DNA from: Gammaproteobacteria bacterium
GTDB taxonomy: Bacteria > Pseudomonadota > Gammaproteobacteria > SZUA-152
Direction of reading: 5' to 3'
Assembly (NCBI GenBank): GCA_021647505.1
Contig: JAKIUN010000044.1
Location: forward strand, 1 to 32,685
Length of the DNA: 32,685 nt
Numbering within the stretch: the stretch's first letter is position 1; each line of letters opens with the position of its first letter. The notes under the pieces were generated by a model, which was not told the DNA's origin, ran no database searches, and was given only the letters and a program-made list of their open reading frames with translations. A program made the position numbers and the translations under genes. Of this stretch, positions 16,272 through 32,429 are shown in pieces.

Positions 16272-16356
16272 ATGTTGGGGTAAGTGGCTATTTTATTTTG
16301 CGCCAGGATGTCAGAGTATGTGCGCATGCAAATGGGCTGGTTGAGGCGGAGGGTTG

Positions 16357-17073
16357 ATGTCAGTAGAGCAGATAGACGGCGGCGATGGAAATTTTTTCGT
16401 TGCCGCACGCGGCTGGCGGCACCCGGCCTGGAAAGAGAGTTTCTATCCCGAGGGTCTGCCGGTAGACTGGCAGCTGTCCTACTATAGCAACGAATTCCGT
16501 GCCGTGGTGGTGCCAGCGGAAGAATGGGCGAAGGCCGATGCACGGGAAGTGGCACGCTGGCAAGAAGACACCGATAAGGCATTCCGGTTTTTTTTCGAAG
16601 TGGTTGATCTGCGAAACAACTGGATGGATTTCCAGGCAGTGGTGGCTTTACTGGCGGGGCAGGTTGGCGGCATCCTGTTGCGGCCGACGCACTGTGACAG
16701 CGACCTGACACAACTGGAATTGTCTTTGCAGCGGGCACGGCAGCTGGCGCCGGTAACGGTGATCCTGCCGCCGGGGTTGACACTCAGCGATGCGGGACAG
16801 TACAGGTTGCTGGACCACGGTGTGGTCTCACCCTGGAGTGCCGGCCAGGGGGCGCCGCCGTGCTGGGAGCTCGGCCTACTGGCGCTGGCGCGCGCCGACG
16901 CCACTGTGCGCACACCGCGCCAGTGGCGTGAAGTGGTGGAGAACTGCCTGAGTTTCGGTGCCGGCAATGGCACCGTTCTATTGATGATGGAAGGAGAGGC
17001 CCCGGACATCGAGGCCTTGCGAATGACGATGATGATTGCCGATATGCTGTCCGCCGCCGAGGTGTTGAGTTGA
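16357..17073 (+). CDS. DUF72-like protein at the head of the mla operon
   Basis: This 238-residue protein is not a known Mla component. Its first 60 residues contain GWRHPAWKESFYPEGLP followed by WQLSYYSNEFRAVVVP, closely resembling the start of DUF72 (YecE-like TIM-barrel) proteins (GWSYPHWRG.FYPEGLP...YY...F). The rest, with VALLAGQVGGILLRP and a C-terminal LLMMEGEAPDIEALRMTMM, fits a divergent or shortened barrel. The start is the ATG at 16357 with GGAGG 5 bases upstream; a TTG just before it is less likely. Its stop overlaps the mlaF start, so it is coupled to the transport operon. Function unknown; the DUF72 link is from motif resemblance. Confidence 0.72.
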   Translation: MSVEQIDGGDGNFFVAARGWRHPAWKESFYPEGLPVDWQLSYYSNEFRAVVVPAEEWAKADAREVARWQEDTDKAFRFFFEVVDLRNNWMDFQAVVALLAGQVGGILLRPTHCDSDLTQLELSLQRARQLAPVTVILPPGLTLSDAGQYRLLDHGVVSPWSAGQGAPPCWELGLLALARADATVRTPRQWREVVENCLSFGAGNGTVLLMMEGEAPDIEALRMTMMIADMLSAAEVLS

Positions 17074-17909
17074 GCGCGGAACCCGTGAATTCGCAACAAC
17101 ACTCGATGCCGGAAGCCTGGGTGCGTATCCGTGGCCTGCGCTACACGCGTGGCGAACAGGTCATCTTTGATGGTGTCGACATGGACATCCCGCGCGGCCG
17201 ATTGACCGCCATCATGGGCCCCAGCGGCACCGGTAAGACCACCCTGTTGCGCCTCATCGGCGGCCAGTTGCACGCCGACGCGGGTACGGTGGAGGTGGCC
17301 GGGCAGAACGTCGCCGCTCTGCGCAGCAAAGCGCTGTACCGCCTGCGTAAGCGCATGGGCATGTTGTTTCAGAATGGCGCCCTGCTGACGGATCTGTCGG
17401 TGTTTGACAATGTGGCCTTTCCACTGCGCGAGCATACCCGCCTGCCGGAGCTTATGATTCGTGATCTGGTGCTGATGAAGCTGCACGCGGTGGGCCTGCG
17501 CGGTGCGCGCGAGCTGATGCCGGCACAGCTCTCCGGCGGCATGGCGCGGCGCGTGGCATTGGCGCGGGCCATCGCCCTGGATCCGGAGATGGTATTGTTC
17601 GACGAGCCGTTTACCGGCCAGGATCCCATTTCGCTGGGTGTGCTGGTAAGCCTGTTGCGCAGTCTCACCGATGCACTGGGACTGACGTCAGTGGTGGTAT
17701 CACATGATGTACAGGAAAGCCTGTCCATTGCGGATTATGTGTATGTGATTTCTGCGGGCCGGGTGGTGGAACACGGTGCACCGGAGGCGCTGCAGCAATC
17801 CACCTCGCCGTGGGTACAGCAATTTCTGCAGGGACAGAGCGACGGCCCGGTGCCGTTCCACTATCCGGCACCCGACTATCGCACCGATCTGCTGGCGGAC
17901 AGCCCATGA
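17070..17909 (+). CDS. mlaF: phospholipid ABC transporter ATP-binding protein MlaF
   Basis: This 279-residue ATPase powers the MlaFEDB complex, which moves phospholipids between the inner membrane and the periplasmic carrier MlaC. Motifs are Walker A GPSGTGKT (50-57), Q-loop FQNGALL (100-106), signature LSGGM (154-158), Walker B MVLFDE (174-179) and switch histidine H212. The [15 protein letters not shown] stretch and the FTGQDPIS segment after Walker B are typical of MlaF. The TTG start at 17070 overlaps the previous stop and has GAGGTG upstream; GTG 17085 and ATG 17106 are alternatives. The C-terminal extension past residue 250 is longer than average and proline-rich. The stop overlaps the mlaE start. 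Confidence 0.95.
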
Positions 17910-18688
17910 TGGGCCTCCTGCAACGCCTGGGTGCGACGACCCTGGGTATCACCGAACGCATCGGTCGTGGCCACCTGTTCCTGCTGTATGTGCTGGGCGG
18001 CTTCCCGAGTCTGCTGCCGCGTTTTGGTTTGGTGATAAAACAGATTTATGCCAGCGGCGTTTTATCCCTGCTGATCATCGCCGTATCCGGTCTGTTCGTC
18101 GGCATGGTGCTGGCCCTGCAAGGCTACAATACGCTGGTCGACTTTGGCGCTACCGAGTCGCTGGGTGTGGTGGTAGCGCTGTCGCTGGTGCGTGAATTGG
18201 GCCCGGTAATGGGGGCGCTGCTGTTCGCCGGCCGCGCCGGCTCGGCGTTGACTGCTGAAATCGGCTTGATGAAGGCCACAGAACAGCTCTCGGCGATGGA
18301 AATGATGGCGGTGAATCCGCTGCATCGGGTGGTGGCGCCGCGTCTGTTGGGCGGCATCATCGCCATGCCGTTGCTGGCCGCCATCTTCAGTGCGGTGGGT
18401 ATTATCGGCGGTTATCTTGTTGCCGTGGGCCTGCTGGGCGTGGACGAGGGTGCCTTCTGGTCGCAGATGCAGGCCAAGGTGGATCTGTTCGATGACGTGG
18501 CCAGTGGCGTTATCAAGAGTGTGGTATTCGGTTTCGTCGTGACCTGGATCGCGCTCTTCGAGGGCTATGACGCCGTGCCCACATCCGAGGGGGTGAGCCG
18601 TGCCACCACACGTACGGTAGTCCACGCCTCGCTGGCCGTGTTGGGGCTAAATTTCATCTTGACCGCACTGATGTTTGGGGATGACTGA
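17906..18688 (+). CDS. mlaE: phospholipid ABC transporter permease MlaE
   Basis: This 260-residue inner-membrane permease is the transmembrane subunit of the Mla complex. It has five or six hydrophobic segments and the family core [18 protein letters not shown], then [19 protein letters not shown] and [18 protein letters not shown]. The start ATG at 17906 overlaps the mlaF stop and gives the normal N-terminal length; the frame is open upstream to 17810 but inside mlaF. The end ([13 protein letters not shown]) is typical. It is followed by a 78-bp gap with a tiny ORF before mlaD, the only loose junction within the mla core. Confidence 0.96.
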
Positions 18689-18766: not shown

Positions 18767-19228
18767 ATGATGCAATCGCGCAGTGTACAGATATGGGTAG
18801 GCCTGTTTGTCATTGCAGGCATGGCGGCGTTACTGATGTTGTCCATAAAAGTTAGCAACATCCGGGCCTTCAGCAATGAGCAAGGCTATGAACTCAACGC
18901 CAATTTTGAAAACATCGGCGGCCTCAAGGTGCGCTCGCCAGTGACCATGGCTGGAGTGGTGGTGGGCCGGGTATCGAAAATTGGTTTTGACAGTGAGATC
19001 TACGAGGCGGTGGTGACTCTGAATATCGATCCGCGCTACGACAACCTTCCTGAGGACACCTCGGCCAGCATTTTTACCTCCGGTCTGCTCGGTGAGCAAT
19101 ATATTGGCCTGGAGGCCGGTGGTGCAGAGAACTATCTGCACGATGGCGACCGTATCCAGCTGACCCAGTCGGCGATCGTGCTGGAAAAACTCATCGGCCA
19201 GTTCCTGGTCAGTCAGGCGGATAAATGA
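18767..19228 (+). CDS. mlaD: MCE-domain phospholipid-binding protein MlaD
   Basis: This 153-residue protein has one N-terminal membrane helix (about residues 8-27) and one MCE domain in the periplasm (about 38-117). MCE motifs are YELNANFENIGGLKVRSPV and MAGVVVGRVSKIGFD, then TSGLLGEQYIGLE. MlaD forms a hexameric ring that passes lipid between MlaE and MlaC. The C-terminal helix after the domain is of normal length for a short single-MCE protein. GGGG lies upstream of the tandem ATG-ATG start. Its stop overlaps the start of the TolC-family gene (ATGA). Confidence 0.96.
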   Translation: MMQSRSVQIWVGLFVIAGMAALLMLSIKVSNIRAFSNEQGYELNANFENIGGLKVRSPVTMAGVVVGRVSKIGFDSEIYEAVVTLNIDPRYDNLPEDTSASIFTSGLLGEQYIGLEAGGAENYLHDGDRIQLTQSAIVLEKLIGQFLVSQADK

Positions 19229-20598
19229 ATATGACTCACCGACTGAGCCTGTTTTTGTTGATTGCCCTGCTGCCTTTGTCTCAGGGTCAGGCCGAGACCG
19301 TGGTGTTGGATTTGCAGCAGGCGGTTGATCGTGCCCTGGAGGTGGATCCGCGTATTACGGAGAAAGAGCGCCACGTGGATCTGGCGCGTGCCCAGCTGCG
19401 CGAGGTTCGCGGCGCCGATGGCTGGAGCCTGTATATGAACACCTTCCTGGGTTTTGCACCCAAGGTGCGTGGTGGTGTTTTCGAGACCACCAATGCGGAC
19501 GGTAAAAAAAGTATTGGACTTGCCTCGGATGCCTTCGATATCGATGGTCTGTCACCGTGGTATTATCTGGAGATGAGGCTTGTCAAGCCACTGCATACCT
19601 TTGGTAAGATCACGCACTATTCCAAGGCTGCGGCGGGCAATATTCAGGTCAAGCGTGGTGATATCCAACTGGCGCGCGCGCAGACACGTATGGACATTGC
19701 CAAGGCCTATTACGGTTATCTGGCGGCGCGTGACAGCCGGCGATTGCTCGACGATACCCTCGACAAGCTACAGGCTTCACTCGATCTGTTGCAGGGCTGG
19801 CTGGACGAAGGCGAGGGTGACGCCAAGCAATCCAACCTGTTTGCCCTGCAGACGGGCACGGCGCTGCTCAAGCGCTATCAGGTCGAGGCGCAGGGCTATG
19901 AGCGCATCGCCTTGGAAGGCCTGCGCATCCTCACAGGCCTGGGTGCGAACGACAATGTTCAGGTGGCGGACAAACGTCTCAAACCGCTGCCCCTGCCGGA
20001 GGGCAGCCTGAAGGAGCTGACCGCCCGGGCCATGACGCGACGGCCCGAGGTGCGGCAACTGGCGGCGGGGCTGGATGCGCGCCGCGAATACATGCTGGCC
20101 AAGCGTAGTGAGTCCCTGCCCAATCTCTATGCCGGTCTGGCAGGCTCTGTTTCCTATGCGCCGGGGCGCGAGGATCTTAACGATGTCAGTATTTACGATC
20201 CCTTTTACTATGCCGGCATGACACCTGTTATCGGTCTCAAGTGGGACTGGAACAGCGGCCGTCAACCGGCGCAGGTAGCGCAGGCCAAGGCCGAGCTGGA
20301 TGCCACCCTGGCATTGCGGGATCAGGCGCGCATGGGTATCCCCTTTCAGGTTGCCGAGCAGTATCACACCGTGCACAGCCATCACGAGATGGTGCAGCGT
20401 CTGTATGAAGGCAGTCGTTCGGGGCGTCGCTGGTTGATCAGCGTCTATGCGGATTTCGAGGCCGGCGTGGAAGAGACGGACAACCTGGTCGCGGCCTTTC
20501 AGGGCTATGTGCTGGCCTATGGGGATTACCTTAGGGTGGTGAACGCCTACAATATGCATGTCGAGCGCCTGCGGGTGGTGACGGGAGATATTCCATGA
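19225..20598 (+). CDS. TolC-family outer-membrane protein embedded in the mla operon
   Basis: This 457-residue protein has a signal peptide (about residues 5-23, LSLFLLIALLPLSQGQA) and the two-repeat outer-membrane-factor architecture. The first half starts LDLQQAVDRALEVDPRI and has long helices such as QLARAQTRMDIAKAYYGYL. The second half begins at TARAMTRRPEVRQLAAGLDA and contains the paired-strand turn WDWNSGRQPAQVAQAKAELD. TolC proteins form trimeric channels across the outer membrane for efflux or type I secretion, with an RND, MFS or ABC partner. None of these is present here; its neighbours are only Mla genes, with four-base overlaps on both sides. A role in outer-membrane lipid delivery or retrieval, in place of MlaA, is an inference. 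MlaA is absent from this operon. Confidence 0.92.
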   Translation: MNMTHRLSLFLLIALLPLSQGQAETVVLDLQQAVDRALEVDPRITEKERHVDLARAQLREVRGADGWSLYMNTFLGFAPKVRGGVFETTNADGKKSIGLASDAFDIDGLSPWYYLEMRLVKPLHTFGKITHYSKAAAGNIQVKRGDIQLARAQTRMDIAKAYYGYLAARDSRRLLDDTLDKLQASLDLLQGWLDEGEGDAKQSNLFALQTGTALLKRYQVEAQGYERIALEGLRILTGLGANDNVQVADKRLKPLPLPEGSLKELTARAMTRRPEVRQLAAGLDARREYMLAKRSESLPNLYAGLAGSVSYAPGREDLNDVSIYDPFYYAGMTPVIGLKWDWNSGRQPAQVAQAKAELDATLALRDQARMGIPFQVAEQYHTVHSHHEMVQRLYEGSRSGRRWLISVYADFEAGVEETDNLVAAFQGYVLAYGDYLRVVNAYNMHVERLRVVTGDIP

Positions 20599-21230
20599 AA
20601 CAGATGATGTTTTGGGCCGGGGTCGGCCGGGTAGTGTTGTTGTCGATGTTGCTGTGCTTGCCGTTGTCGCTGATGGCGGCGGCCCAGCCACCGCAAGAGC
20701 TGGTGATAGAGACCACCAACAGGATCATCAAGGCCCTGCAGGCCGAACAGGCGGAGATCAAGAAAAATCCTGCACGGCTGTACGAAATCGTTGACGAGAT
20801 CGTCCTGCCACATTTTGATTTCCGCCGTATGTCCAGTTGGGTGCTGGGCAAGCACTGGCGCAAGGCCAGTCCGGCCGAGCGCGAGCAGTTTGTGAAGGAA
20901 TTCCGCGCCCTGTTGGTGCGCACCTATGCCGCAGCCCTGAATGACAATTACGATCAAGAGATCGACTTTTTGCCATTGCGCACCAAGAAAGAGGCGACGG
21001 AGGTCACCGTGCGCACCGAGGTGCAGCTGGATGCCGGTTTTCCTATACCGATCAATTACCGCATGTACCGCACCGAGGGGGGGGAATGGCTGGTCTTTGA
21101 TGTAAAGATCGACAGTGTCAGTCTGGTGACCAATTACCGGAGTTCTTTCTCCAAGGAAATCCGCCAGGGTGGCCTGCCCAAGCTCATCGCCAAGCTCTCC
21201 GAACGCAACCAGCGGGTGAAGCGTGACTGA
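20595..21230 (+). CDS. mlaC: periplasmic phospholipid carrier MlaC
   Basis: This 211-residue soluble protein ferries phospholipid across the periplasm between the outer membrane and MlaFEDB. A signal peptide covers about residues 1-29 (LLSMLLCLPLSLMAAA). The MlaC/Ttg2D fold is recognisable from YEIVDEIVLPHFDFRRMSSW, VLGKHWRKASPAEREQFVKE and the end EWLVFDVKIDSVSLVTNYR followed by SSFSKEI. Its ATG overlaps the stop of the TolC-family gene, and its own 3' end overlaps mlaB by eight bases. Confidence 0.96.
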   Translation: MKQMMFWAGVGRVVLLSMLLCLPLSLMAAAQPPQELVIETTNRIIKALQAEQAEIKKNPARLYEIVDEIVLPHFDFRRMSSWVLGKHWRKASPAEREQFVKEFRALLVRTYAAALNDNYDQEIDFLPLRTKKEATEVTVRTEVQLDAGFPIPINYRMYRTEGGEWLVFDVKIDSVSLVTNYRSSFSKEIRQGGLPKLIAKLSERNQRVKRD

Positions 21231-21519
21231 GGTACGTCTCGAAGCGGTTTCTCCCGGGCATTACCGGCTCATTGGCGAGTTAGATTTTGACAGTGTGCCA
21301 GCGCTGGCGGGGCGTAGCGAGGAGTTGTTCAGCGGCGATGGCAGCGTGCAAGTGAGTCTCGATGCAGTCGGACGCGGCAACAGCGCGGGTCTTGCTCTGC
21401 TGGTCGACTGGCTGCGTGAGGCCAGGCGCCGAGGGCGTAACATTAGCTTTACCAATATGCCATCTCAGTTGCTGGCGCTGGCCCGAGTCAGTGGTGTGGA
21501 CGAACTGTTGTCCCTGTAA
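21223..21519 (+). CDS. mlaB: STAS-domain protein MlaB
   Basis: This 98-residue STAS-domain protein is the cytosolic subunit that binds MlaF and supports its activity. The core is LIGELDFDSVPALAGRSEEL, then VSLDAVGRGNSAGLALLVDW and LREARRRGRNISF. The conserved serine-alanine-glycine at NSAGLALL is present, while the residue before it is N, where Asp or Thr is more common. It starts with GTG inside the mlaC 3' end and closes the operon; the convergent AlgE-like gene ends 35 bases later, with no clear terminator seen between them. Confidence 0.93.
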   Translation: MTEVRLEAVSPGHYRLIGELDFDSVPALAGRSEELFSGDGSVQVSLDAVGRGNSAGLALLVDWLREARRRGRNISFTNMPSQLLALARVSGVDELLSL

Positions 21520-21554: not shown

Positions 21555-23087
21555 TCAGAAATTGTACTGAACCTGAAGCGTGATACTCGATGCTTTTTTG
21601 CCAGAGAATATGCCGTATGCTTTACCCGCACGAAATTGAGTGGCGACCAGTTCTAATTCCAGTTGTTGCCATTCCTCCAGGCCCAGGATGATGTTGAATT
21701 CTTCACCGATGTCGCGATGCTTGCCTTCCGGGCGGGTACGAATCCGGCTGTTACGCAGCTGATCCGAGGCGTGGACTTGTGTATAGCGGTGATAAACCAG
21801 ATCAAGAGAACTGTCTTTCAGCAACGGAAAGCCCAGCGCAAGCGTCCTGATCACCAGGTTGGACAGCTCGGGGCGTGACAATTCACCGTAATATCGAAAG
21901 CTGGTGACGCCACGAAACTTGTGATCATTGCTTTGCAGACCACTTTGGCGATAGGCGCGGTTCATGTCATCATCGGGGTTCGCGTCGCCTGAACCCTTCG
22001 CGTAGCCGAAAGTCAGACTCGGTTGATAGGGCAGTTTGGTCTCCCACGTGGCGCCGAAATCCAGCCCCCAGCCGTTGATGGTGTGGTCGCGGCGCTGGTC
22101 GATTTTGCTTTGACCGTCGCCGATATCAGTAACGTCAAACAGTGTTTCTTTTCCATAAACCACGCCGCTGTCCAGCCAGTAATAAGCCTTGCCAAAATCA
22201 TCGCTTTTCACTCTGCCGCGGCTACGCAGACCAAGCCAATTGATCGTGGCATCTTCGTTGTCTTCCTGCTTTTCAGAGATGATATCGCCGACATTAGGCG
22301 TTGAGGAATGATCCAAACGGGAGAGGAAAAATATCTCGAAGTGGTTCTTTTTCGTCCACTCCCAATCTGCACTGGCGATTAGCCAGGTGATATCTTCATC
22401 CTCGGGATCCAGGCGATCACTTTCGGTGGAAATGGTGGTCGAGTTCGCACCAATGGCGAACTGAGCGCTGAATGAGCTGCCAGTGTATTGGACACGCACG
22501 GCATCCAATTGCTTGTCCCACCACCATTCACGCTTGTCACCAAAATATTGGCGGCCAATTTGCAGGCTCAGGCGATGATTTCCAAGTCCCCCGACATAGA
22601 CCCACAGTTCTCCCAGTTCGATTTTTTGGGTTGTGTCCATATCGTTATCTTCAGCATACAGATATGTCTGGTAACTGGGGTCTATTTCAATATAAAACGA
22701 TGTTTCGGGTGTCAAGTGATAGAGAAATTCAAATTTCAGGCCGAGACTGAGACGAAAATCGTCATCATCCCGACGGCCCAATGATACATCCTCCCGGTAT
22801 CTTAGCTTGGTGTCGATGTCGCCGCCGATGATCAAAGGGCGATTGAACCATTGCACCGTAAATTGTTCTTCGGGCCGTTCGTCATCCTGTGGGCGCTGGA
22901 CGAATGAGGCACCACCCGTTTGTCTGATCTCTTCTGGCGGTAGGGGTGGAATGTTTTGTCCGATGGCGGTTGAGCAGAAGGTTGCCAATGTGAGTGCCAG
23001 GCAAGTGCTCAAGTTGGTTCCTCGGCTGGCGAAAAATAGTGGCGCGGAGTTTCGTGACCCCATTGCCGGAGTGTTTGATGATTTCAT
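21555..23087 (-). CDS. AlgE-like outer-membrane beta-barrel (alginate export family)
   Basis: This 510-residue protein has a signal region (hydrophobic about 27-43, ending STAIGQ), a proline-rich linker (NIPPLPPEEI), and then a large barrel ending in phenylalanine (QVQYNF). The order of strands resembles the alginate-export family: FEFLYHLTPETSFYIEIDPS, the ELWVYVGGL...LQIGRQYFGD segment, and WWWDKQLDAVRVQYTGSSFS. AlgE itself lets an anionic exopolysaccharide leave the cell, so a glycan pore is a natural role here. It is the last gene of the leftward operon, and its ATG overlaps the stop of the upstream kinase gene. No AlgK-like scaffold is seen nearby. The C-terminal strands are rich in charged residues. 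Confidence 0.85.
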   Translation of the reverse strand: MKSSNTPAMGSRNSAPLFFASRGTNLSTCLALTLATFCSTAIGQNIPPLPPEEIRQTGGASFVQRPQDDERPEEQFTVQWFNRPLIIGGDIDTKLRYREDVSLGRRDDDDFRLSLGLKFEFLYHLTPETSFYIEIDPSYQTYLYAEDNDMDTTQKIELGELWVYVGGLGNHRLSLQIGRQYFGDKREWWWDKQLDAVRVQYTGSSFSAQFAIGANSTTISTESDRLDPEDEDITWLIASADWEWTKKNHFEIFFLSRLDHSSTPNVGDIISEKQEDNEDATINWLGLRSRGRVKSDDFGKAYYWLDSGVVYGKETLFDVTDIGDGQSKIDQRRDHTINGWGLDFGATWETKLPYQPSLTFGYAKGSGDANPDDDMNRAYRQSGLQSNDHKFRGVTSFRYYGELSRPELSNLVIRTLALGFPLLKDSSLDLVYHRYTQVHASDQLRNSRIRTRPEGKHRDIGEEFNIILGLEEWQQLELELVATQFRAGKAYGIFSGKKASSITLQVQYNF

Positions 23088-24124
23088 ATGCCGAGGCGCT
23101 GCTCTGTGAGTTCAAGCAAGGCTTGGGTATAGGGACGCCGTTGAGAGAACAGGGTGCTGATATGGATGTGCCGTGCCAGCGTCAAGGTGGCATAGGCGCG
23201 AATGGCTTGTGCTGAGACGCCAGGGTTGAGGCGTAAAAATCGTGCTTCAAGTGCTTGTTCCACATGGGCAAGCGCACTGGCGTCTCCTAAGTTTCGTAAA
23301 CTGAATTCGGTAATGTGCGCAATGAAGTTGCCGATATCGAGCGCGGGGTCTCCCTTGCAATAGAGGTCAAAATCCAGCAGATAGAGCCGTTCGTCATCTG
23401 CAATGATCTGGTCGGCGTAAAAGTCCCGGTGGATGCCGCAGAAGGGGGCGGTGGTCACGCGGTTTCCCAGGCGCTCGCAGTGGTCAATGATGCGCCCAAT
23501 GCGGTCGGACCACTGCGGGTATGCGCGGGCTGTCTTGCCAAGGCGTTCGTGCAAAATCTGTAATTCATCCGTCATTGTGTGGCGGCGTCGCGCCGGGACA
23601 CCGCTGCGGTGGATTTTGTGGGCGGCTTCGGCGACGCGCTCGGCCAGATGTTCGCCCTGTGGGCCGGCAAGTCGTCGCTCCAGCGTAACGCCCGGCACCT
23701 TGGACTGCAGCCACATATGCCACTGGGGAATCTCGCCAACAGGGTGCGGTAGCGCGATGCCGTCGCCGGCTTGCTCATTCATACCTGCCGCCCACAGCCT
23801 GTTGAGCACGATCCAGGTGCTGTGATCATGGCTTTTCATCCGTATTTTGGCCATCAATGTCAGGCGCCGCGGCTTGCGCGAGGGCTGTTTAACCAGAAGG
23901 TCGTATTCGATCAGGCAACGCCGTCCGGGCTTGTGACGGTTGAGGCGAATCGCGGTGAGTTCCGGCAGGGCGCCTTCGTCGCGGAAGAAGGGTAGACGTG
24001 ATAATTCGGCCTGCACCGCTACGCGGTCAAGCGCCTGATGAACCCCCTCAAAATTCTCGTTGATGAGGTGGGTTGATGGAGTCTTTGTGATCATATTCAG
24101 AGGGCCCATAACTGCTGCAATCAA
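23084..24124 (-). CDS. APH-fold phosphotransferase (single N-lobe)
   Basis: This 346-residue protein has the aminoglycoside-phosphotransferase/choline-kinase fold. The N-lobe is seen as LNRHKPGRRCLIEYDLL (about 61-77). The catalytic loop is HRDFYADQ (232-239), and the metal-binding segment LLDFDLYCKGDPALDIG starts at about 249. The usual Asn of HxDxxxxN is Gln (Q239), which is known in some sugar-kinase-like members. Such enzymes phosphorylate sugars, choline or antibiotics; in a glycan operon, sugar activation or polymer modification is more likely than resistance. Its stop overlaps the AlgE-like start. The frame opens with a TTG overlapping the upstream stop; in-frame ATGs at 24109 and 24094 are alternatives, and no start has a good ribosome-binding site. 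Confidence 0.85.
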   Translation of the reverse strand: MIAAVMGPLNMITKTPSTHLINENFEGVHQALDRVAVQAELSRLPFFRDEGALPELTAIRLNRHKPGRRCLIEYDLLVKQPSRKPRRLTLMAKIRMKSHDHSTWIVLNRLWAAGMNEQAGDGIALPHPVGEIPQWHMWLQSKVPGVTLERRLAGPQGEHLAERVAEAAHKIHRSGVPARRRHTMTDELQILHERLGKTARAYPQWSDRIGRIIDHCERLGNRVTTAPFCGIHRDFYADQIIADDERLYLLDFDLYCKGDPALDIGNFIAHITEFSLRNLGDASALAHVEQALEARFLRLNPGVSAQAIRAYATLTLARHIHISTLFSQRRPYTQALLELTEQRLGI

Positions 24125-25398
24125 GCGGTTGGATAGGGTGAATGTAGAATATCATTTATTTGTTCCAGTCGTTTTTGTATACCCTCCGGCCAGTTGGGTT
24201 CATGGGCCCTGAAGGGTCTGTGAGACAGCGAAAATAATCCCGCCGCGATGTGGCAATGAAGCGTGCGGGTTATCGGTTGTTGTGTGCTGGACTGATAGCC
24301 TTCGATGAAGGCCTCTATCAGTAATTCAGCTTGGTTATGTGTTATTTTCCCGGTGTGTTCATACCTGAGCAGGCGTGCGATGAACAGGCCAATATCCTCC
24401 ATCGGGTCGCCACAAACATTTTCATCATGGTCGATAATGGCGACTTGGCCTTTCTCCATCAGGATGACTTGACTGGGGCTGAAATCGCCATGTATGCGTT
24501 GCGCAGCGGGGGGCTCTCGTAACAGTTTTTGGGCGATGCCTGTGGCGATCTCTTGGGCAAGTGAGGCCAGTGATGAGTGAAGATGGGTGATGGTTTTGGC
24601 AACAGCCGTTAATTTGTCAGCCTTTATACTGGCTGTGCGGTGCTTCAGGTCGTCTGTGGCCAGGGTATGAAATTCGGCCAGTGCGGCGCCACATGCATGG
24701 AGAGAGCAGGCAGCTGGAGTAGTGGTTATTTCACTATCCAGCAAGCGTCCGGGGAGCCATTCGAATGCCAGACTTTGATGGTGTTGTGATCGTCCCAAGG
24801 TGCGCGGAATGCGTAGCCGGGCGGTAGCCGGGCAGTCAATCATCGTGGCCACTGCCGCCTTGTGATATTCGTTTTCACGATAGTGTTTCACGACGACACT
24901 ATTTCCGTGTTCGAGATTGATACGGCCAACGTAGCGTCGTTGTGGCTTATACGCCAAAGTTTCAATATCGGCCGGCCACGCTTCGGTACTGGCAGGGAGT
25001 AGTGCCTTTAAAATATCCTGCCTGCTATCACGATTGGCTAGCCCTGCGAGGGAAGTCAGTCTGGTATCACCTGGAAAGAGGGAAATCAACACCTGATCTT
25101 GACATATAATGTGGTGATCATTACCGATGGGTATGGACAACCTGCCCCAGGCTTTTCCATGGTAGGCCGTCACGTGGGCCAGCATGGGTGTGACGGTATC
25201 CCGAATCCTGACTTGATAGGAGCCCAGACAAGAACGTGTTGGCCGGTAACGCAGGTAGGTTAATTGCACGCTGGTCACATCCAGTTCGGGCCGGGCGACC
25301 TGTAATGTTGTAAGAAAGGCATCCGGGTCTATCACTACCTTCATTCCGGCAATGGCTTGATCACGTTGTACAAGGTTGGCATCAGCGGTTGACAGCAT
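24121..25398 (-). CDS. large APH-fold kinase, copy A (duplicated N-lobe)
   Basis: This 425-residue protein ends in an APH-type C-lobe with HGDFSPSQ (303-310) and IIDHDENVCGDPMEDIG (from about 321). The N-terminal half is unusual: two regions look like kinase N-lobes, LRYRPTRSCLGSYQVRI at about 49-65 and LAYKPQRRYVGRI with VVVKHYRE at about 148-174. K171 is the likely ATP-contact lysine of the second. A first-lobe copy without its own C-lobe might be structural or regulatory. As in the small kinase, Gln replaces the usual Asn of the catalytic loop. It is in the operon with the exporter and glycosyltransferases, so a sugar or lipid-linked glycan substrate is likely. Its neighbour, copy B, is a near-identical paralogue. 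Confidence 0.83.
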   Translation of the reverse strand: MLSTADANLVQRDQAIAGMKVVIDPDAFLTTLQVARPELDVTSVQLTYLRYRPTRSCLGSYQVRIRDTVTPMLAHVTAYHGKAWGRLSIPIGNDHHIICQDQVLISLFPGDTRLTSLAGLANRDSRQDILKALLPASTEAWPADIETLAYKPQRRYVGRINLEHGNSVVVKHYRENEYHKAAVATMIDCPATARLRIPRTLGRSQHHQSLAFEWLPGRLLDSEITTTPAACSLHACGAALAEFHTLATDDLKHRTASIKADKLTAVAKTITHLHSSLASLAQEIATGIAQKLLREPPAAQRIHGDFSPSQVILMEKGQVAIIDHDENVCGDPMEDIGLFIARLLRYEHTGKITHNQAELLIEAFIEGYQSSTQQPITRTLHCHIAAGLFSLSHRPFRAHEPNWPEGIQKRLEQINDILHSPYPTA

Positions 25399-25579
25399 AG
25401 TTATTCTCCTCTTTTTTTACGCCTTTCAGGTCAGTCTTGAACATGGCTGCATAGTGTTGGTTGGCCTGCACCGCTACGCGGTCAAGCGCCTGATGAACCC
25501 CCTCAAAACGTTCGTTGATGAGGTGGGTTGATGGCGTCTTTGTGATCATATTCTGAGAGTCCATAACCGCTGCAATCAA
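25382..25579 (-). pseudogene. chimeric 65-codon ORF at the duplication junction
   Basis: The first 39 codons match the start of the small kinase (ITKTPSTHLIN, then ALDRVAVQA). The last 26 match the end of the ABC exporter (YAAMFKTDLKGVK, then EENNYAVNR). The two pieces meet in frame at the GGCCTGCA microhomology. The ORF keeps the same overlaps with its neighbours as the parent genes: it starts at the TTGA overlap with copy B and its 3' end overlaps the start of copy A by 17 bases. It contains no catalytic part, so it is a by-product of the duplication, but it may still keep translation coupled between the two kinase copies. Confidence 0.85.
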
Positions 25580-26856
25580 ACGTTTGGATAGGATGAATGT
25601 AGAATGTCGTTTATTTTTTCCAGTCGTTTTTGTAGACCCTGCGGCCAGTTGTGTTTATGGGATCTGAAGGGTTTGTGAGCCAGCGAAAATAATCCCGCCG
25701 CGATGTGGCAAGGAAGCGTGTGGGTTGTTATCGGTTGTTGTGTGTTGGACTGATAGCCTTCGATGAAGGCCTCCATCAGTAATTCAACTTGGTTATGTGT
25801 TATTTTCCTGGTGTGTTCATACCTGAGCAGGCGTGCGATGAAGTGGCCAATATCCTCCATCGGGTCGCCACAAACATTTTCATCATGGTCGATAATAGCG
25901 ACTTGGCCTTTCTCCATCAGGATGACTTGACTGAGGCTGAAATCGCCATGTATGCGTTGCCTAGCGGGGGCCTCTTGTAACAGTTTTTGGGCGATGCCTG
26001 TGGCGATCTCCTGGGCAAGTGAGGCTAGTGGTGGGTGAAGATGGGCGATGGTTTTGGCAGCAGCCGTTAATCTGTCAGCCTTTATACTGGCTGTGCGGTG
26101 TTTCAGGTTGTCTGTTGCCAGGGTATGAAATTCGGCCAGTGCAGCGCCACATGCATAGAGAGAGTGAGCTGCCGAGGTGGTGGTTATTTCACGGCGCAGC
26201 ACGCGTCCGGGGAGCCATTCGAATGCCAGACTTTGATGGTGTTGTGATCGTCCCAAGGTGCGCGGAGTGCGTAGCCGGGCGGTAGCCGGGCAGTCAATCA
26301 TCGTGGCCAATGCCGCCTTGGGATATTCGTTTTCACGATAGTGTTTCACGACGATACTATTTCCGTGTTCGAAATTAATACGGCCAACGTAGCGTCGTTG
26401 TGGCTTATACGCCAAAGTTTCAATATCGGCCGGCCACGCTTCGGCACTGGCAGGGAGTAGCGTCTTTAAAATATCCTGCCTGCTATCACGATTGATCAGC
26501 CCTGCGAGGGAGGGCAGTCCGGCATCACCTGGAAAGAGGGAAATCAACACCTGATCTTGACATATAATGTGGTGATCATTGCCGATGGGTATAGACAATC
26601 TGCCCCAGGCTTTTCCATGGTAGGCCGTCACGTGGGCCAGCATGGGTGTGACGGTATCCCGAATCTTGACTTGATAGGAGCCCAGGCAAGTACGTGTTGG
26701 CCGGTAACGCAGGTAGGTTAATTGCACACGGGTCACATCCAGTTCGGGCCGGGCGACCTGTAATATTGTAAGAAAGGCATCCGGATCCATCACTACCTTC
26801 ATTCCGGCAATGGCTTGATCACGTTGTACAAGGTTGGCATCAGCGGTTGACAGCAT
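25576..26856 (-). CDS. large APH-fold kinase, copy B (duplicated N-lobe)
   Basis: This 426-residue paralogue of copy A shares the same domain order, with two N-lobe-like regions and the C-lobe HGDFSLSQ and IIDHDENVCGDPMEDIG. Differences from copy A cluster in the loop after the second N-lobe (GRVLRREITTTSAAHSLYAC against GRLLDSEITTTPAACSLHAC) and in the C-terminal 50 residues. The catalytic-loop Pro of copy A is Leu here. All key charged residues are kept, so both copies could be active, possibly on different acceptors. One extra codon sits in the ITTHTLPCH region. The start overlaps the end of the ABC-exporter gene by 17 bases. This copy, next to the intact exporter end, keeps the ancestral upstream junction. 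Confidence 0.84.
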   Translation of the reverse strand: MLSTADANLVQRDQAIAGMKVVMDPDAFLTILQVARPELDVTRVQLTYLRYRPTRTCLGSYQVKIRDTVTPMLAHVTAYHGKAWGRLSIPIGNDHHIICQDQVLISLFPGDAGLPSLAGLINRDSRQDILKTLLPASAEAWPADIETLAYKPQRRYVGRINFEHGNSIVVKHYRENEYPKAALATMIDCPATARLRTPRTLGRSQHHQSLAFEWLPGRVLRREITTTSAAHSLYACGAALAEFHTLATDNLKHRTASIKADRLTAAAKTIAHLHPPLASLAQEIATGIAQKLLQEAPARQRIHGDFSLSQVILMEKGQVAIIDHDENVCGDPMEDIGHFIARLLRYEHTRKITHNQVELLMEAFIEGYQSNTQQPITTHTLPCHIAAGLFSLAHKPFRSHKHNWPQGLQKRLEKINDILHSSYPNV

Positions 26857-28666
26857 AGTTATTTTCCTCTTGTTTTACGCCTTTCAGGTCAGTCTTGAAC
26901 ATGGCTGCATAGCGTTGGTTGGCCTGCATCAATTGGGTGTGGGTGCCTTGTTCCAGTATGCGACCTTGCTCGATCATCCATATTGCATCGGCCTGCATGG
27001 CATGGTGTAAATGGTGGGTAATTTGGAACGTGGTACGGCCTTTTGACAGCCGGTTTAGTGCGTCGATTACAGCGATTTCATTTTCACGATCAAGCCCTGT
27101 GGTGGGTTCATCAAGAATGAGAATCGGTGAATCACGAATGGCTGTTCTGGCAAGGGCGATACGTTGTCGCTGGCCATTGGAGAGGGTGGCGCCCCGTTCA
27201 CTGATAAGGGTGTTATAACCCTTAGGCAAGGCCAGGATGAACTCATGTGCATTGGTGAGTTTGGCCGCTGTTTCAACTTCTGCATCGGTGGCATCCGGGA
27301 AGCCACAGGCAATATTGTCGCGCACGCTGGCGGCGAATATGCAGGGGTCTTGCAGGGCCACACTGATCTGGCTGCGTAGAGAATGGACGCTGAAGTCACG
27401 GATGTCGAGACCGTCGATCAGTACCCGGCCGCTTTGTGGATCGTGCAAGCGCAATAACAGACTTATGATCGTGGATTTGCCACTGCCTGAGGCACCGACC
27501 AGGGCAATTTGTTGGCCTGCAGATACTTCAAAATCCAGATTATGAAGTATCGGATGTCCGGGTTCGTAGGCAAAGTTGACCTGCTCAAAGCGGATATTGC
27601 CGCATAGCGGCGGTGCGGGTTCGGCATGGGGGCTATCGATGATGTCCGGTGTTTGTTCAAAGATATCCAGCACGCGCTCACCTGCAGTGGCGGCTTTGGC
27701 AAGTCGGCTGACTTGTTTGGAGAAACTTTTGACAGGTTTGAAGGCGGATTTAATATACGAAAGAATCACCAGTAACTCACCGGGAGTGAGTTCGTTGCTT
27801 AAAACCAAACGTGCGCCAAACCATAATACCAACGCGGTGACCGTACCGACAAGGATGCCTACCGTGCCGGTCAACAGGGCGGTAAGTCGTTTGGCTCGAA
27901 TACTGTACTGGAGGTCTTTGCGGTTGTTGGCGCCAAATGAATGTGCGAATTTTTGATTGAGTGACAATGCCTGTACGGCTTTAATCGACGCAATGGATTC
28001 AGCCGCAGTAGAGGCCATGGCGCCTTCCTGGTGGCGCTGCTTGCGGGATGCCTTTTGTATGCGTTTTCCCAGATAGCCTGCTGCGAAAAAAAACAACGGA
28101 ATTATTGTCAAGGCAATCAGTGCGAGCTGCCAGTGTAGCCAGAATATGACAGCAAACATGCTGATCAATAAAACGATACTGCCAAATAGCGGGAGTACCG
28201 TACTGATCATAACTTCTTTGATAATGCCCAGATCACTGATAACCCGTGTGGTCAGGTCGCCGGTTTTGTTTTTGCTGTGGAACGTCAGGGACAAGGTTTG
28301 TAGATGTTGGTAGAGATCCTGACGAACTTCGGCCAATACCCGGCTACCGATTATGGCAAAGCCGACGGTGTGGAGATAGCCTGCCAATGCCTTGAGTCCC
28401 GCGATGGCGATGATCGCTGAGGCAGCCAAAATCAGTAATAATTCTGGATTTGATAATATTTCGCTGGCACTGGTGTCCTGGATAATGAGATTGTCGATCA
28501 CAAACTTGAGCGGCCAGGGGGCGGCGATCACGAATACAATTTGGCATAGCATCGCAATAAACGAACCTGTCAGCAAAAGCCGGTAAGCGCCCATTTTTGC
28601 TGAGAAAAATCGGCCGATTCGCCATAAGCTGGGCGCACTGTCACGAATATGTTTACTTTTTCCCAT
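26840..28666 (-). CDS. type-I half ABC exporter (fused membrane and ATPase domains)
   Basis: This 608-residue protein has a six-helix membrane domain (about 28-330) fused to an ATPase domain. Motifs are Walker A GASGSGKS (391-398), Q-loop VALQDP (about 436-441), signature LSNGQ (495-499), Walker B LILDE (516-520) and switch histidine H551. The architecture is that of MsbA- and lipid-linked glycan exporters, which work as homodimers in the inner membrane. GGAGG lies 8 bases upstream of the ATG. Flanked by kinases and glycosyltransferases, it most likely flips a lipid-linked glycan or glycolipid. The last 26 codons are repeated at the duplication junction downstream. Confidence 0.94.
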   Translation of the reverse strand: MGKSKHIRDSAPSLWRIGRFFSAKMGAYRLLLTGSFIAMLCQIVFVIAAPWPLKFVIDNLIIQDTSASEILSNPELLLILAASAIIAIAGLKALAGYLHTVGFAIIGSRVLAEVRQDLYQHLQTLSLTFHSKNKTGDLTTRVISDLGIIKEVMISTVLPLFGSIVLLISMFAVIFWLHWQLALIALTIIPLFFFAAGYLGKRIQKASRKQRHQEGAMASTAAESIASIKAVQALSLNQKFAHSFGANNRKDLQYSIRAKRLTALLTGTVGILVGTVTALVLWFGARLVLSNELTPGELLVILSYIKSAFKPVKSFSKQVSRLAKAATAGERVLDIFEQTPDIIDSPHAEPAPPLCGNIRFEQVNFAYEPGHPILHNLDFEVSAGQQIALVGASGSGKSTIISLLLRLHDPQSGRVLIDGLDIRDFSVHSLRSQISVALQDPCIFAASVRDNIACGFPDATDAEVETAAKLTNAHEFILALPKGYNTLISERGATLSNGQRQRIALARTAIRDSPILILDEPTTGLDRENEIAVIDALNRLSKGRTTFQITHHLHHAMQADAIWMIEQGRILEQGTHTQLMQANQRYAAMFKTDLKGVKQEENNYAVNR

Positions 28667-28696
28667 GGTGTTTTCCTCCGGCGGCCGTATGCTTCA

Positions 28697-29896
28697 TTAC
28701 CGGGATGTTCCGCTTAAGCTGGTTTGGCTGATTTGTTGTGCTGGCTCTGGTGCCCTGATGCCAGCCAGTTTAAGGATCCGCTGTGTGACTGAATGCCAAC
28801 TATGGGATTGCACGACTGTACGGCGGGCTTCATTACCCAATGTTTGACGCAGAGCCGGGTTCTTCATGAGTTGTTCCAAGGCCGCGGCCAGGGCGGCAGG
28901 CTGGCCTGGAGGGCAGAGTATGCCGTTACGACCATGTTGGATGAGTGAGGCGAGTTGGCCTATGCGGCTGACGACCACCGGCAGGCCCGCTGCCATGTAT
29001 TCCAGAACCTTTAAAGGCGAGAAATAAAAATCCGGGCTGTCGGGATAGGGCGCGACGGCGACATCCATTGCGGCCAACAGTGCAGGCACCTGGTCAGGCG
29101 CTACTGCACCGGTAAAGTGAGCGAAATCAGCCAGGCCGTGAGACTTCAGCGTCTCTTCCAGGTCGCCACGTTTGGGGCCGTCGCCAACAATCAGCAATCG
29201 AACCTGGGAATAACGACGACGCAGCAGCACAAATGCTTCGAGTAAACCATCGAGCCCGTGCCAGGGTTTTAGTGTACCGACAAAACCAATAGTGAAGCCC
29301 TCCTCTGATTTGGCTGCCGGCGGCCATTGAAAGCGTGCGGGATTGACACCGTTGCTGATCGGATGAACGCGCTCACAGGTCTCGCTATAGGTATCCAGAT
29401 AACTGGCGACTTCACCGGATACTGCGACCAGTGTCGATGCGGCAGCAAAAGCCCGGCGGGATTTATGTTCGGCCTCAGCTCGATTGAAAAGCTGACGGTG
29501 GCGGCTTTGTTCTTCGATCAATGGCGCATTGACTTCCAAAATACCAGGCAGTGCGTGAGTTTGGGCAAACTCCATGGCCGCATGGCTCCAAAGCGAATAG
29601 CGTTCGTAGATCATGTCGAAAGGGCCAGTCTTAGCCAGTGCTGTGGCGATGTGTTTGTTGAGATTTTGGGAGAATATTTCTCGTTGACGGGGATCCGTGG
29701 AGGCGGCACCAGGCAACTGGATCAACGTCACGCCTTGCAGGTCGGATGGGGGTTTGCCACCGGGGCGCGGGGTAAAGAGTGTCACATCCGCTCCCTGGTT
29801 CAAAAAGGCGCGAATAATCTCTTGGACATGTATCGAGCATCCCTTGTAACCGAAAACCGGCACACCAAAATCGGCGCAGATATAGGCAATTTTCAT
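28697..29896 (-). CDS. glycosyltransferase family 4-like
   Basis: This 399-residue retaining GT-B enzyme is typical of GT4. The N-terminal acceptor domain starts MKIAYICADFGVPVFGYKGC with the usual glycine-rich loop and HVQEIIRAF. The C-terminal donor domain includes IGFVGTLKPWHGLDGLLEAF, LLIVGDGPKRGDLEE, and the sugar-nucleotide site SPLKVLEYMAAGLPVVVS, in which Lys replaces the first Glu of the common E-x7-E pattern. It adds a sugar to a lipid-linked or polymer acceptor at the cytosolic face; the sugar is unknown. AGAGGTAGG precedes the start, which overlaps the upstream glycosyltransferase stop by ATGA. The ABC exporter begins 30 bases after its end. Confidence 0.92.
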   Translation of the reverse strand: MKIAYICADFGVPVFGYKGCSIHVQEIIRAFLNQGADVTLFTPRPGGKPPSDLQGVTLIQLPGAASTDPRQREIFSQNLNKHIATALAKTGPFDMIYERYSLWSHAAMEFAQTHALPGILEVNAPLIEEQSRHRQLFNRAEAEHKSRRAFAAASTLVAVSGEVASYLDTYSETCERVHPISNGVNPARFQWPPAAKSEEGFTIGFVGTLKPWHGLDGLLEAFVLLRRRYSQVRLLIVGDGPKRGDLEETLKSHGLADFAHFTGAVAPDQVPALLAAMDVAVAPYPDSPDFYFSPLKVLEYMAAGLPVVVSRIGQLASLIQHGRNGILCPPGQPAALAAALEQLMKNPALRQTLGNEARRTVVQSHSWHSVTQRILKLAGIRAPEPAQQISQTSLSGTSR

Positions 29897-31137
29897 AATC
29901 CTACCTCTTGGCAGTTATTTATCCTGGATGTGGCACGGTCAAATACTGATCGCAACACAGCCGTGTTTTGATGAATGTCGAAGGCATGCTCAATCAATCG
30001 GCGAGCCTGTTGTGCAAGCCGTGTGCGCTCTTGTGGATGGCTTAATAAATGCTCCAGCCCTTGAGTGAGAGCCGCGACATTTTTTTGTGGCACGATAAGG
30101 CCCGTGTGGTCGTGCTTAATGGCTTCTGGGATGCCCGTGACATCGGTTGAGATACACGGCACACCCAAGGCCATGGCTTCAAGTAATACGGTGGGCAAAC
30201 CGTCACGGTTGCCATCGACACCGACAACGCACGGGGCGGCGAATACAGCGGCTTGTTGCAGACTGTCGATGACTTCTCGTTGCGGTAGCGGCCCCAGCAT
30301 CCTCACTTTTTCTTGCAAGCCGCGCCGATGAATGTCTGCATTGAGCATGTCCTGCAAAGGGCCGCCGCCGATAATATGGCATTCAAAATCGATATTCCGT
30401 ATCTTCAGTTCAGTGCAGGCGGCGATTAAATCAGAGAAGCCTTTTTTCTCGATTAAACGGCCGATGGCAACAATGCGAGGCGATCGATTATTGGGGTTCG
30501 AATACGGCAAACGGGATAAATCGAGGCCATTATAGATGCGCTGTACCTTGCTGGCGGAATTGCCGAACTTGTCTTGCAAAAAGTCCACATTGTAATCACT
30601 GACCGTGATGACCGATGTAGCATCTTGAATTTTTGTCTGTAGATCGTCGTTCTTTACGCTCTCATGAAAAATGTCTTTGGCGTGGGCGGTAAACGAATAT
30701 GTCAATCCGGCAAACAGTGAGGCCAGGCGGGCAACCGTCGTCGCCGAGGTAGCGAAATGGGCGTGTAAATGTTCAATGCCTTTTTCTCGTGCCTGCAGGG
30801 CCAGCAATGCCGCTTGATAAACGTCCCGCGCCGTTTCATTCCGCGCTGCGTTGAGGCCGCTTTCCCAGCCCGGCAGGTTTTTCACTGCGGTCATAAGTTC
30901 GTTCCAGAATTCACCGGCGCTGAGCACATTCGGCGCAGACAGATAGGTGACCGGTGCTCGCACACTGGCGATGGTATCCTGAAAGTGAGTGTCGCAAGAT
31001 TGACGCAGGGCGAAAATGTCCAACGACAGCCCCGCTTTCTCGTGCGCGAGGATTTCATTGACGATGAATGTTTCCGAGTAGCGTGGATACCGCTTTACTA
31101 CATAGCCAATGCGTGGTGTGTAGGAATAGTCAGGCAT
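29893..31137 (-). CDS. glycosyltransferase family 4
   Basis: This 414-residue GT-B enzyme starts with RIGYVVKRYPRYSETFIVNE, the sequence typical of exopolysaccharide GT4 enzymes that begin with YPRxSETFI. The donor domain has RIVAIGRLIEKKGFSDLIAA, CHIIGGGPLQDML and VLLEAMALGVPCISTDVTG, with GIPEAIKHDHTGLIV after it. The acidic patch around DGLPTVLLEAMA matches the E-x7-E site (first residue Asp). AGGAGAGG precedes the ATG. It overlaps the next glycosyltransferase start by four bases. It likely builds a repeat unit with its neighbours; linkage and donor are unknown. Confidence 0.94.
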   Translation of the reverse strand: MPDYSYTPRIGYVVKRYPRYSETFIVNEILAHEKAGLSLDIFALRQSCDTHFQDTIASVRAPVTYLSAPNVLSAGEFWNELMTAVKNLPGWESGLNAARNETARDVYQAALLALQAREKGIEHLHAHFATSATTVARLASLFAGLTYSFTAHAKDIFHESVKNDDLQTKIQDATSVITVSDYNVDFLQDKFGNSASKVQRIYNGLDLSRLPYSNPNNRSPRIVAIGRLIEKKGFSDLIAACTELKIRNIDFECHIIGGGPLQDMLNADIHRRGLQEKVRMLGPLPQREVIDSLQQAAVFAAPCVVGVDGNRDGLPTVLLEAMALGVPCISTDVTGIPEAIKHDHTGLIVPQKNVAALTQGLEHLLSHPQERTRLAQQARRLIEHAFDIHQNTAVLRSVFDRATSRINNCQEVGL

Positions 31138-31151
31138 AATAATGGCCTCTC

Positions 31152-32420
31152 CTATGGGTTATTTTGTTTGATTTGACAGATTTCTCTGACCAGGGCAGGT
31201 AATCGGGACAAGCCACCAAAATCCATTTGGGCATGCACCGAAGGCGTACTTGGACACCGACTGGCATTTTCCATCCATGCCGAGAGTCTCTCCGGAGTGA
31301 GCTGGTCAGGAAGGACGACATCGATGATTCCCAGGGTTTTAAGACGTTCGGCGCGGAGCCGTTGTTCATGACGGGGAGTGGTTCGAGGAACGATGAGCGC
31401 GTGTTTTTCAAACGACAGAATTTCCGAAACGACGTTGTAACCGCCCATGGCAATCACATAGTCGGCTTGATGAATCAGGAATGTTGGTTTGTTTACGAAC
31501 TCCAGCACCCTCAAGTTGGTGCGTGAGGCAGCCATGTGGTGGAGTTCAGCCTTCATTTCAGGCGGCATGAATGGGCCAGTGACGATGACCCCGAACATGT
31601 CCTCAGGGAGCGTGGCACGGGCGAATGCCTTGGTTAGAGGCGCACCGTCCTGTCCGCCACCCGCCATACATAAGACGAAACGACCATCGGGAAGATTAAA
31701 TTCGCTGCGACTGGATTTTATCGCGTGCTCAGTGTGTTGCTCAAAACAAACACGGCGATCAAAATAACCGGTATAGCTCACCTTGTTGGCAATATTGCCG
31801 GTCATTTTATATTCGTGAACGGCATCGTAAACATTCGGATCACCATAAATCCATATTTTGTCGTAAAATTTGTCGATCGTCTCCTCGTTGCTGGCCTTGT
31901 GCCATTCGGCTTTCACCTGCTCAGGCTCGTCAAGCACGTCCCGCAAACCCAGCACACAAGAAGTTTTATTCTGTCGGCGGATATCCTCCAGCGTCGCGTC
32001 CAGTTCATTGAGCGCGCCACGAGGTACGTTGTCGACAATAAATATATCCGGCTCGAAGGCGGCGATTGAGGCACGGATCATTTGTGCGCGAATTCTTTTT
32101 AAATCTTCCACCGGAATATCCAATGATCGGGGTAGGTAATTACCGTTACTCTCCTTGCGCAAAGACGGCAGTGTGATGCAGTCAACCCCCGGTGGCATTT
32201 GCGCGGCGCTGGCTTGACGTGCGCCTGTAATCATTAAAATACTGGTTTGCAGGTTGGAATAGGATAGGGCCTGACTGATCATTAGGTTACGCCTCATGTG
32301 CCCCATTCCCACGGTATCGTGGGAATATAAGGCGATGCGAAGTTTGCGTGCTCCAGCATTAACACATCGTACCGGACTTTTCGACGATGCCAGGGGTAAT
32401 GGCAAGATTACTTGAGTCAT
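31152..32420 (-). CDS. MurG-like/COG4671-type predicted glycosyltransferase
   Basis: This 422-residue GT-B-like protein has the N-terminal signature RIALYSHDTVGMGHMRRNLM, as in COG4671 predicted glycosyltransferases. The C-terminal half has VLCMAGGGQDGAPL, IVTGPFMPPE and the donor-site-like ADYVIAMGGYNVVSEILSFE, similar in pattern to MurG (AGxxT...E). The ATG at 32420 is chosen because AAGGAG lies 9 bases upstream. A GTG at 32429 would touch that ribosome-binding site and is unlikely. It is the first gene of the leftward operon. The donor is probably a nucleotide sugar; the acceptor is unknown. Confidence 0.87.
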   Translation of the reverse strand: MTQVILPLPLASSKSPVRCVNAGARKLRIALYSHDTVGMGHMRRNLMISQALSYSNLQTSILMITGARQASAAQMPPGVDCITLPSLRKESNGNYLPRSLDIPVEDLKRIRAQMIRASIAAFEPDIFIVDNVPRGALNELDATLEDIRRQNKTSCVLGLRDVLDEPEQVKAEWHKASNEETIDKFYDKIWIYGDPNVYDAVHEYKMTGNIANKVSYTGYFDRRVCFEQHTEHAIKSSRSEFNLPDGRFVLCMAGGGQDGAPLTKAFARATLPEDMFGVIVTGPFMPPEMKAELHHMAASRTNLRVLEFVNKPTFLIHQADYVIAMGGYNVVSEILSFEKHALIVPRTTPRHEQRLRAERLKTLGIIDVVLPDQLTPERLSAWMENASRCPSTPSVHAQMDFGGLSRLPALVREICQIKQNNP

Positions 32421-32429
32421 ATAAGGCAC

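Follow-up and report, generated by a model that had tools for sequence, protein, structure and literature searches.

A TolC-family channel gene inside an Mla operon of a gammaproteobacterial genome without detectable MlaA: a putative variant of the phospholipid-transport pathway

A gene encoding a TolC-like outer-membrane channel has been found inside the Mla operon of a gammaproteobacterium, between mlaD and mlaC, in a genome where MlaA is not detected. The structure of this operon, its conservation among relatives, the predicted fold of the channel, the divergence of its tips and its strong mutual exclusion with MlaA are shown here. That the locus encodes an Mla variant with a dedicated TolC-family trimer as its outer-membrane component, instead of the MlaA lipoprotein-porin complex, is inferred from this genomic pattern, without interaction or phenotype data, and is a reading that we hold with moderate confidence. 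Since MlaA is nearly always missing where a channel of this type joins the Mla operon, its place has probably gone to a protein of another kind. The standard pathway of lipid homeostasis in the outer membrane is Mla, whose direction of transport and whose step at the outer membrane have been disputed for years. If nature has put an unrelated channel into the operon slot of MlaA, and has done so in several classes, the requirements of that step can be tested on an independent design, and TolC-family proteins would seem able to serve as parts of lipid pathways.

The window (the whole stretch of DNA that was analysed, 32,685 nucleotides) carries on its forward strand a run of six genes, identified from open reading frames and from Pfam and NCBIfam matches, in the order mlaF-mlaE-mlaD-(TolC-like)-mlaC-mlaB (Table 1). 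Both this order and the four-base overlaps on either side of the TolC-like gene had been claimed in a first-pass annotation made from the sequence alone, and both claims held once coordinates, domain matches and the two ATGA overlaps were inspected. Moreover, mlaF and mlaE overlap by four bases (ATGA) and mlaC and mlaB by eight; 78 bases separate mlaE from mlaD. Directly 5' of mlaF, and overlapping it by four bases, lies a gene with weak similarity to DUF72 (16354-17073), a relative of which is retained 5' of mlaF in many related loci.

Table 1. Genes of the Mla operon and the overlaps flanking the TolC-like gene (positions in the window).
Feature	Position	Strand	Evidence
mlaF, ABC ATPase	17070..17909	+	PF00005; top NCBIfam match MlaF PRK11831
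mlaE, permease	17906..18688	+	PF02405 E=1e-74; NCBIfam NF033619 MlaE
mlaD, short MCE protein, 153 aa	18767..19228	+	PF02470; TIGR04430 MlaD equivalog
TolC-like outer-membrane channel, 457 aa, between mlaD and mlaC	19225..20598	+	PF02321 96 bits; AlphaFold2 model
mlaC, periplasmic phospholipid carrier	20595..21230	+	PF05494 E=1e-57; matches solved MlaC/Ttg2D structures
mlaB, STAS-domain protein	21223..21519	+	PF13466
ATGA overlap, mlaD stop / tolC start	19225..19228	+	sequence
ATGA overlap, tolC stop / mlaC start	20595..20598	+	sequence

Judged by its other components, the system is of the Mla kind; it fails the criterion of possessing MlaA, and the TolC-family protein as a replacement is inferred from the genomic pattern. 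The permease meets the criterion for an Mla-type MlaE (409 bits with NF033619, cut-off 315), and MlaD that for a protein with a single MCE domain (196 bits with TIGR04430, cut-off 135), the latter being, at 153 aa, without a beta-barrel extension and encoded by the sole MCE gene of the genome (a single PF02470 match genome-wide). MlaC, also found once in the genome, meets the carrier criterion (194 bits with PF05494, cut-off 26); it lies under the stricter NCBIfam MlaC equivalog cut-off (94 versus 195 bits) and scores nearly equally with HpnM, a hopanoid-associated relative. MlaF reaches 399 bits with PRK11831, slightly under the equivalog cut-off of 441, and MlaB is recognisable but under its NCBIfam equivalog cut-off (32 versus 90). 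The presence in the operon of both the MlaF ATPase and the MlaB STAS protein meets the criterion for Mla membership.

From a structural perspective, the channel has the predicted fold of an outer-membrane factor. Its AlphaFold2 model, built with an input of 37 relatives, has a mean pLDDT of 85.5 and is predicted to contain four barrel strands and two long helical hairpins; it aligns over nearly the whole length with the structures of TolC, OprM, OprN and CusC (Z 25-29; 27-29 for TolC, OprM and OprN) at an identity of 12-19%, mostly 13-18%. The OEP domains (PF02321, over the cut-off) together with the alpha/beta-barrel fold satisfy the criterion for the TolC/outer-membrane factor family. The protein is far under the cut-offs of the NCBIfam TolC and NodT models, and searches of solved structures by sequence gave no close relative (one search returned none at E 0.001, another returned CusC at 5e-4). 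The hairpin tips are located at about residues 196-201 and 413-417. Tip 2 of the subfamily reads DF-x-AG[VL]E in all rows compared, as against YEVGTRTSVDVL in the genome's own TolC homologue, and in the comparison with the other channels of the genome this channel lacks the TolC/RND-type adaptor-binding motif (row L121, a wrong-strand open reading frame, was disregarded). The loop of tip 1 is longer; acidic residues dominate it in the gammaproteobacterial members, and its composition is more mixed in those from Sulfuricella and Thiobacillus. As the tips have diverged from those that bind adaptors, a different docking partner is suggested, although this remains an inference.

Nor has a pump been found next to the gene. 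Genes of the TolC family typically, though not universally, have one for a pump or adaptor (RND, HlyD) close by. None was present among the window genes scanned with Pfam, where RND pumps, MFS pumps and HlyD adaptors were all looked for; the other genes scanned are mostly metabolic, regulatory or glycan genes plus single outer-membrane proteins. The earlier claim that no RND, MFS or ABC efflux partner is near thus held for RND and MFS and must be qualified for ABC, given an MsbA-like exporter at 26840-28666. Being on the opposite strand and within a glycosyltransferase cluster, this exporter is not an evident partner of the channel. The minus-strand region to which it belongs (21555-32429) encodes APH-type kinases and glycosyltransferases and resembles a surface glycan locus, adjoined by a gene for an alginate-export-type porin (21555-23087). 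The genome holds nine TolC-family genes in all. Near six of the eight others an RND pump gene is found; another has no RND pump in view and carries the standard TolC tip motif, and the last lies in a thioredoxin/regulator neighbourhood, with no RND pump found beside it.

The position of the gene is conserved far beyond the genus. Of 15 genomes of its own family/order, 14 bear MlaC, and each of these has tolC immediately before mlaC. A large scan of 84,980 species genomes, queried with signature peptides of this TolC subfamily, yielded 42 loci, with mlaC directly behind tolC in every one (42/42) and mlaD upstream in 39, contig ends cutting two of the remaining three; the carriers include Tenderia-like Gammaproteobacteria (Candidatus Tenderia), Sulfuricella, Sulfurimicrobium, Sulfuriferula and Thiobacillus. 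Furthermore, a phylum sample added four carriers, three of them from other classes, all with the order mlaFED-tolC-mlaC. An order kept over such distances, other classes included, indicates an old conserved operon rather than a local oddity. In one related genus (g5), unrelated genes lie between mlaE and mlaD or between mlaD and tolC (L067:3700-5900, L071:3770-5950, L068:1700-5400). Judged by eye from the translations, these inserts differ by species, being a LysR-like regulator with an NAD-binding dehydrogenase-like protein, a peroxiredoxin-like protein or ankyrin-repeat-like proteins; they may possibly reflect a relaxed constraint on the operon where MlaA is present. The g5 channel stays intact despite them.

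MlaA (PF04333) has no match in the whole 3.74-Mb genome, which is 98% complete, and is therefore also absent from the window, as the first-pass annotation had stated for the window only. It was likewise not found in four genomes of the same genus, so that the absence holds for all five genomes of genus g1, as it does for g2 (1/1) and g3 (2/2); MlaA is present in g4 (1/1) and in 5/6 genomes of g5. MlaA and the TolC gene thus coexist in these sister genera, and the latter probably goes back at least to the origin of the family. In a sample of the class (131 genomes at least 95% complete, about one per family; subfamily membership at E below 1e-30), the channel was found in 17 genomes, once in each and always beside MlaC on the same strand. 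MlaA is absent from 14 of these 17 carriers and from only 3 of the 106 other MlaC-bearing genomes (Fisher's exact p = 4.4e-13, odds ratio 160). MlaA is likewise absent from 28 of the 33 genomes behind the scan loci, the five with MlaA being four in or near genus g5 and one Thiobacillus metagenome-assembled genome (MAG), and from all four carriers of the phylum sample. Incomplete assembly as the reason for the absence is ruled out, for it repeats in the five g1 genomes and in 14 of 17 genomes at least 95% complete.

The association was also considered on a tree of MlaF, MlaE and MlaC, a quick tree with several weak branches, from which rows L157, L158 and L163 and two long-branch rows were left out for the contrasts. 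At least nine changes of the TolC state occur on this tree. With weak branches included, about nine independent contrasts are obtained, in which the TolC/no MlaA side is set against the no TolC/MlaA side in 7.5 on average, with the reverse in 0.04 and no difference in 1.4 (median sign-test p 0.008). When only strongly supported branches are used, there are just two or three contrasts, almost all of them pointing the same way and too few for significance. Both MlaA and the TolC operon are kept in g4, in most of g5, in three further genomes (G111, G123 and G145) and in one Thiobacillus MAG, so the exclusion is strong but not absolute. Conversely, three genomes bear MlaC with neither MlaA nor this TolC (G060, G085 and G118; loci L126, L127 and L128), and MlaC can therefore exist without either; in L128, mlaC lies apart from a divergent mlaD-mlaF-mlaE-mlaB set. 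These genomes may have a further outer-membrane solution or be incomplete.

Standard gammaproteobacterial operons in the sample have mlaC directly after mlaD, with mlaA elsewhere or divergent just upstream (the latter in L182, L196 and L197). In one genome (G128, locus L174), which on the MlaF+MlaE+MlaC tree is sister of the Sulfuricella/Thiobacillus TolC clade, the order is mlaF-mlaE-mlaD-mlaA-mlaC-mlaB, and mlaA occupies the exact slot held by tolC in the window. G111 has two Mla loci, with mlaA before mlaC in one and tolC before mlaC in the other.

What had been proposed from the start, a TolC trimer in place of the MlaA-porin complex, is thus supported at the genome level: the gene order is kept in relatives and MlaA is mostly missing from carriers. 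An mlaA elsewhere in the genome combined with a poorly conserved position of the TolC-like gene, or a clear efflux partner, would have spoken against it; in the genome of the window MlaA is absent and the position conserved, and no efflux partner is encoded beside the gene. That the channel does the job of MlaA is still an inference from the genomic pattern. In the proposed mechanism, MlaFEDB would sit in the inner membrane and MlaC would ferry lipid, most likely docking, alone or on the MlaD hexamer, at the coiled-coil tips that the TolC-like trimer would extend about 100 angstroms into the periplasm, thereby opening a lipid route to or from the outer membrane; the direction would be retrograde if the system works as Mla does in E. 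coli. In that organism a basic patch on MlaC mediates its recruitment by the acidic tail of MlaA (PMC10719372), and the surfaces of MlaC that bind MlaD and MlaA overlap (PMC10245069); as a docking site for MlaC, the acidic tips of the trimer may play the part that the MlaA tail plays in other systems. The trimeric state, the contact with MlaC or MlaD, the carriage or receipt of lipid, the direction of transport and a role in outer-membrane lipid asymmetry are all inferred. In the alignment of the basic patch, the MlaC residues for recruitment by the MlaA tail (K84/R90 in the numbering of the E. coli paper) are largely kept in both the TolC-type and the other group, with no clear loss of the MlaA site; columns 72 and 130 differ between the groups, a difference confounded by descent. 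Together, a TolC barrel and the short MlaD ring would fall short of bridging the periplasm; the retention of MlaC fits this, as a carrier of its kind would remain necessary. Counting against the main reading, a TolC barrel has no obvious lateral entry for a lipid of the outer leaflet. A bolder version, namely a widespread second architecture of proteobacterial Mla in which a TolC-type trimer replaces the MlaA-porin complex as the lipid-exchanging station and MlaC docks on its diverged, often acidic tips, is in our judgement slightly more likely than not.

Among the rival explanations, the strongest, though itself rather unlikely, is that an Mla-type ABC transporter has turned into a trans-envelope exporter, with MlaFEDB driving a lipid or hydrophobic compound (for example a hopanoid, a solvent or a modified lipid) outwards through MlaC and the channel in the manner of MacAB-TolC, rather than maintaining asymmetry. 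TolC-family channels normally serve export, and the MlaD of E. coli is a hexameric ring, as adaptors are; in addition, the MlaC of the window scores about as well with the hopanoid-associated HpnM, and no MlaA is left for lipid extraction. Against this, MlaE and MlaD are above the curated Mla cut-offs, MlaD is short, MlaC and MlaB are retained, the operon is without biosynthesis genes, and the exclusion pattern with MlaA points to the same job and not to a new one.

Less likely again, the protein might be an all-purpose outer-membrane factor serving pumps whose genes lie elsewhere, its place in the Mla operon reflecting no more than a shared site of action, the envelope, and the loss of MlaA being unrelated. 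Its ordinary TolC fold, the two other channels of the genome beside which no RND pump was found either, and the g5 channel that is intact though unrelated genes entered the operon are in favour of this view; however, every carrier examined, whatever its class, has the gene adjacent to mlaC, the exclusion with MlaA is strong, and the tips are unlike those of the pump-type channels of the same genome, six of which have their own pumps. Still less credible is that the function of MlaA is dispensable or performed by an unrecognised protein, the TolC-like protein being an accessory such as a periplasmic scaffold for MlaC. The three MlaC-bearing genomes of the class sample with neither MlaA nor this TolC, and the genomes that keep both, speak for it, but the absence of MlaA is rare (3/106 MlaC-bearing genomes) unless this TolC is present (14/17).

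The variant Mla system favoured here can be placed beside known ones. With the Mla of E. coli and Acinetobacter (MlaA-OmpC/F, MlaC, MlaFEDB) it shares the inner-membrane transporter, a short MlaD, MlaC, the STAS protein and the order FED-C-B; it differs from that system in having no MlaA in the genome and a TolC-family gene between mlaD and mlaC. With MacAB-TolC and the RND-type channels (TolC, OprM, CusC) the fold is common over the whole chain, whereas here adaptor and pump are absent beside the gene, the tip motifs are different and the sequence identity is low, as given above. A tolC gene in the company of MCE genes is not without precedent, since a minimal Mla operon, mlaEFD-tolC-tamB, has been published for Veillonella parvula (PMC10665443), likewise without MlaA and with a tolC homologue after the mla genes. 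In that system MlaD is long and carries a predicted C-terminal outer-membrane beta-barrel, MlaC is missing and tamB belongs to the operon, in contrast to the short MlaD and the MlaC found here; the bridge was assigned to MlaD, and TolC appears as an outer-membrane marker with no transport role in the relevant passages (PMC10665443). A long-MlaD bridge of the Veillonella type is ruled out for the window, where MlaD has 153 aa and MlaC is present. The reading proposed here bears on the unexplained tolC of the Veillonella operon and, if true, would mean that a TolC-family protein handles membrane phospholipid rather than efflux, and that genomes scored as Mla incomplete for want of MlaA may be complete. 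The chimeric Mla-Pqi system Mpc of Brucella abortus, described as homologous to components of both Mla and Pqi, also deviates from the usual make-up of Mla in Proteobacteria; TolC occurs in its description only in the reference list (PMC12436622). No description of a tolC between mlaD and mlaC was found in the open-access literature searched, subscription papers being mostly outside its scope. Finally, several members of the class possess a second, distinct Mla-like set, mlaE-mlaD-mlaA-mlaC, with mlaF partly separate or reversed (L130, L156-L159, L163), which a deep split on the tree sets apart from the main Mla.
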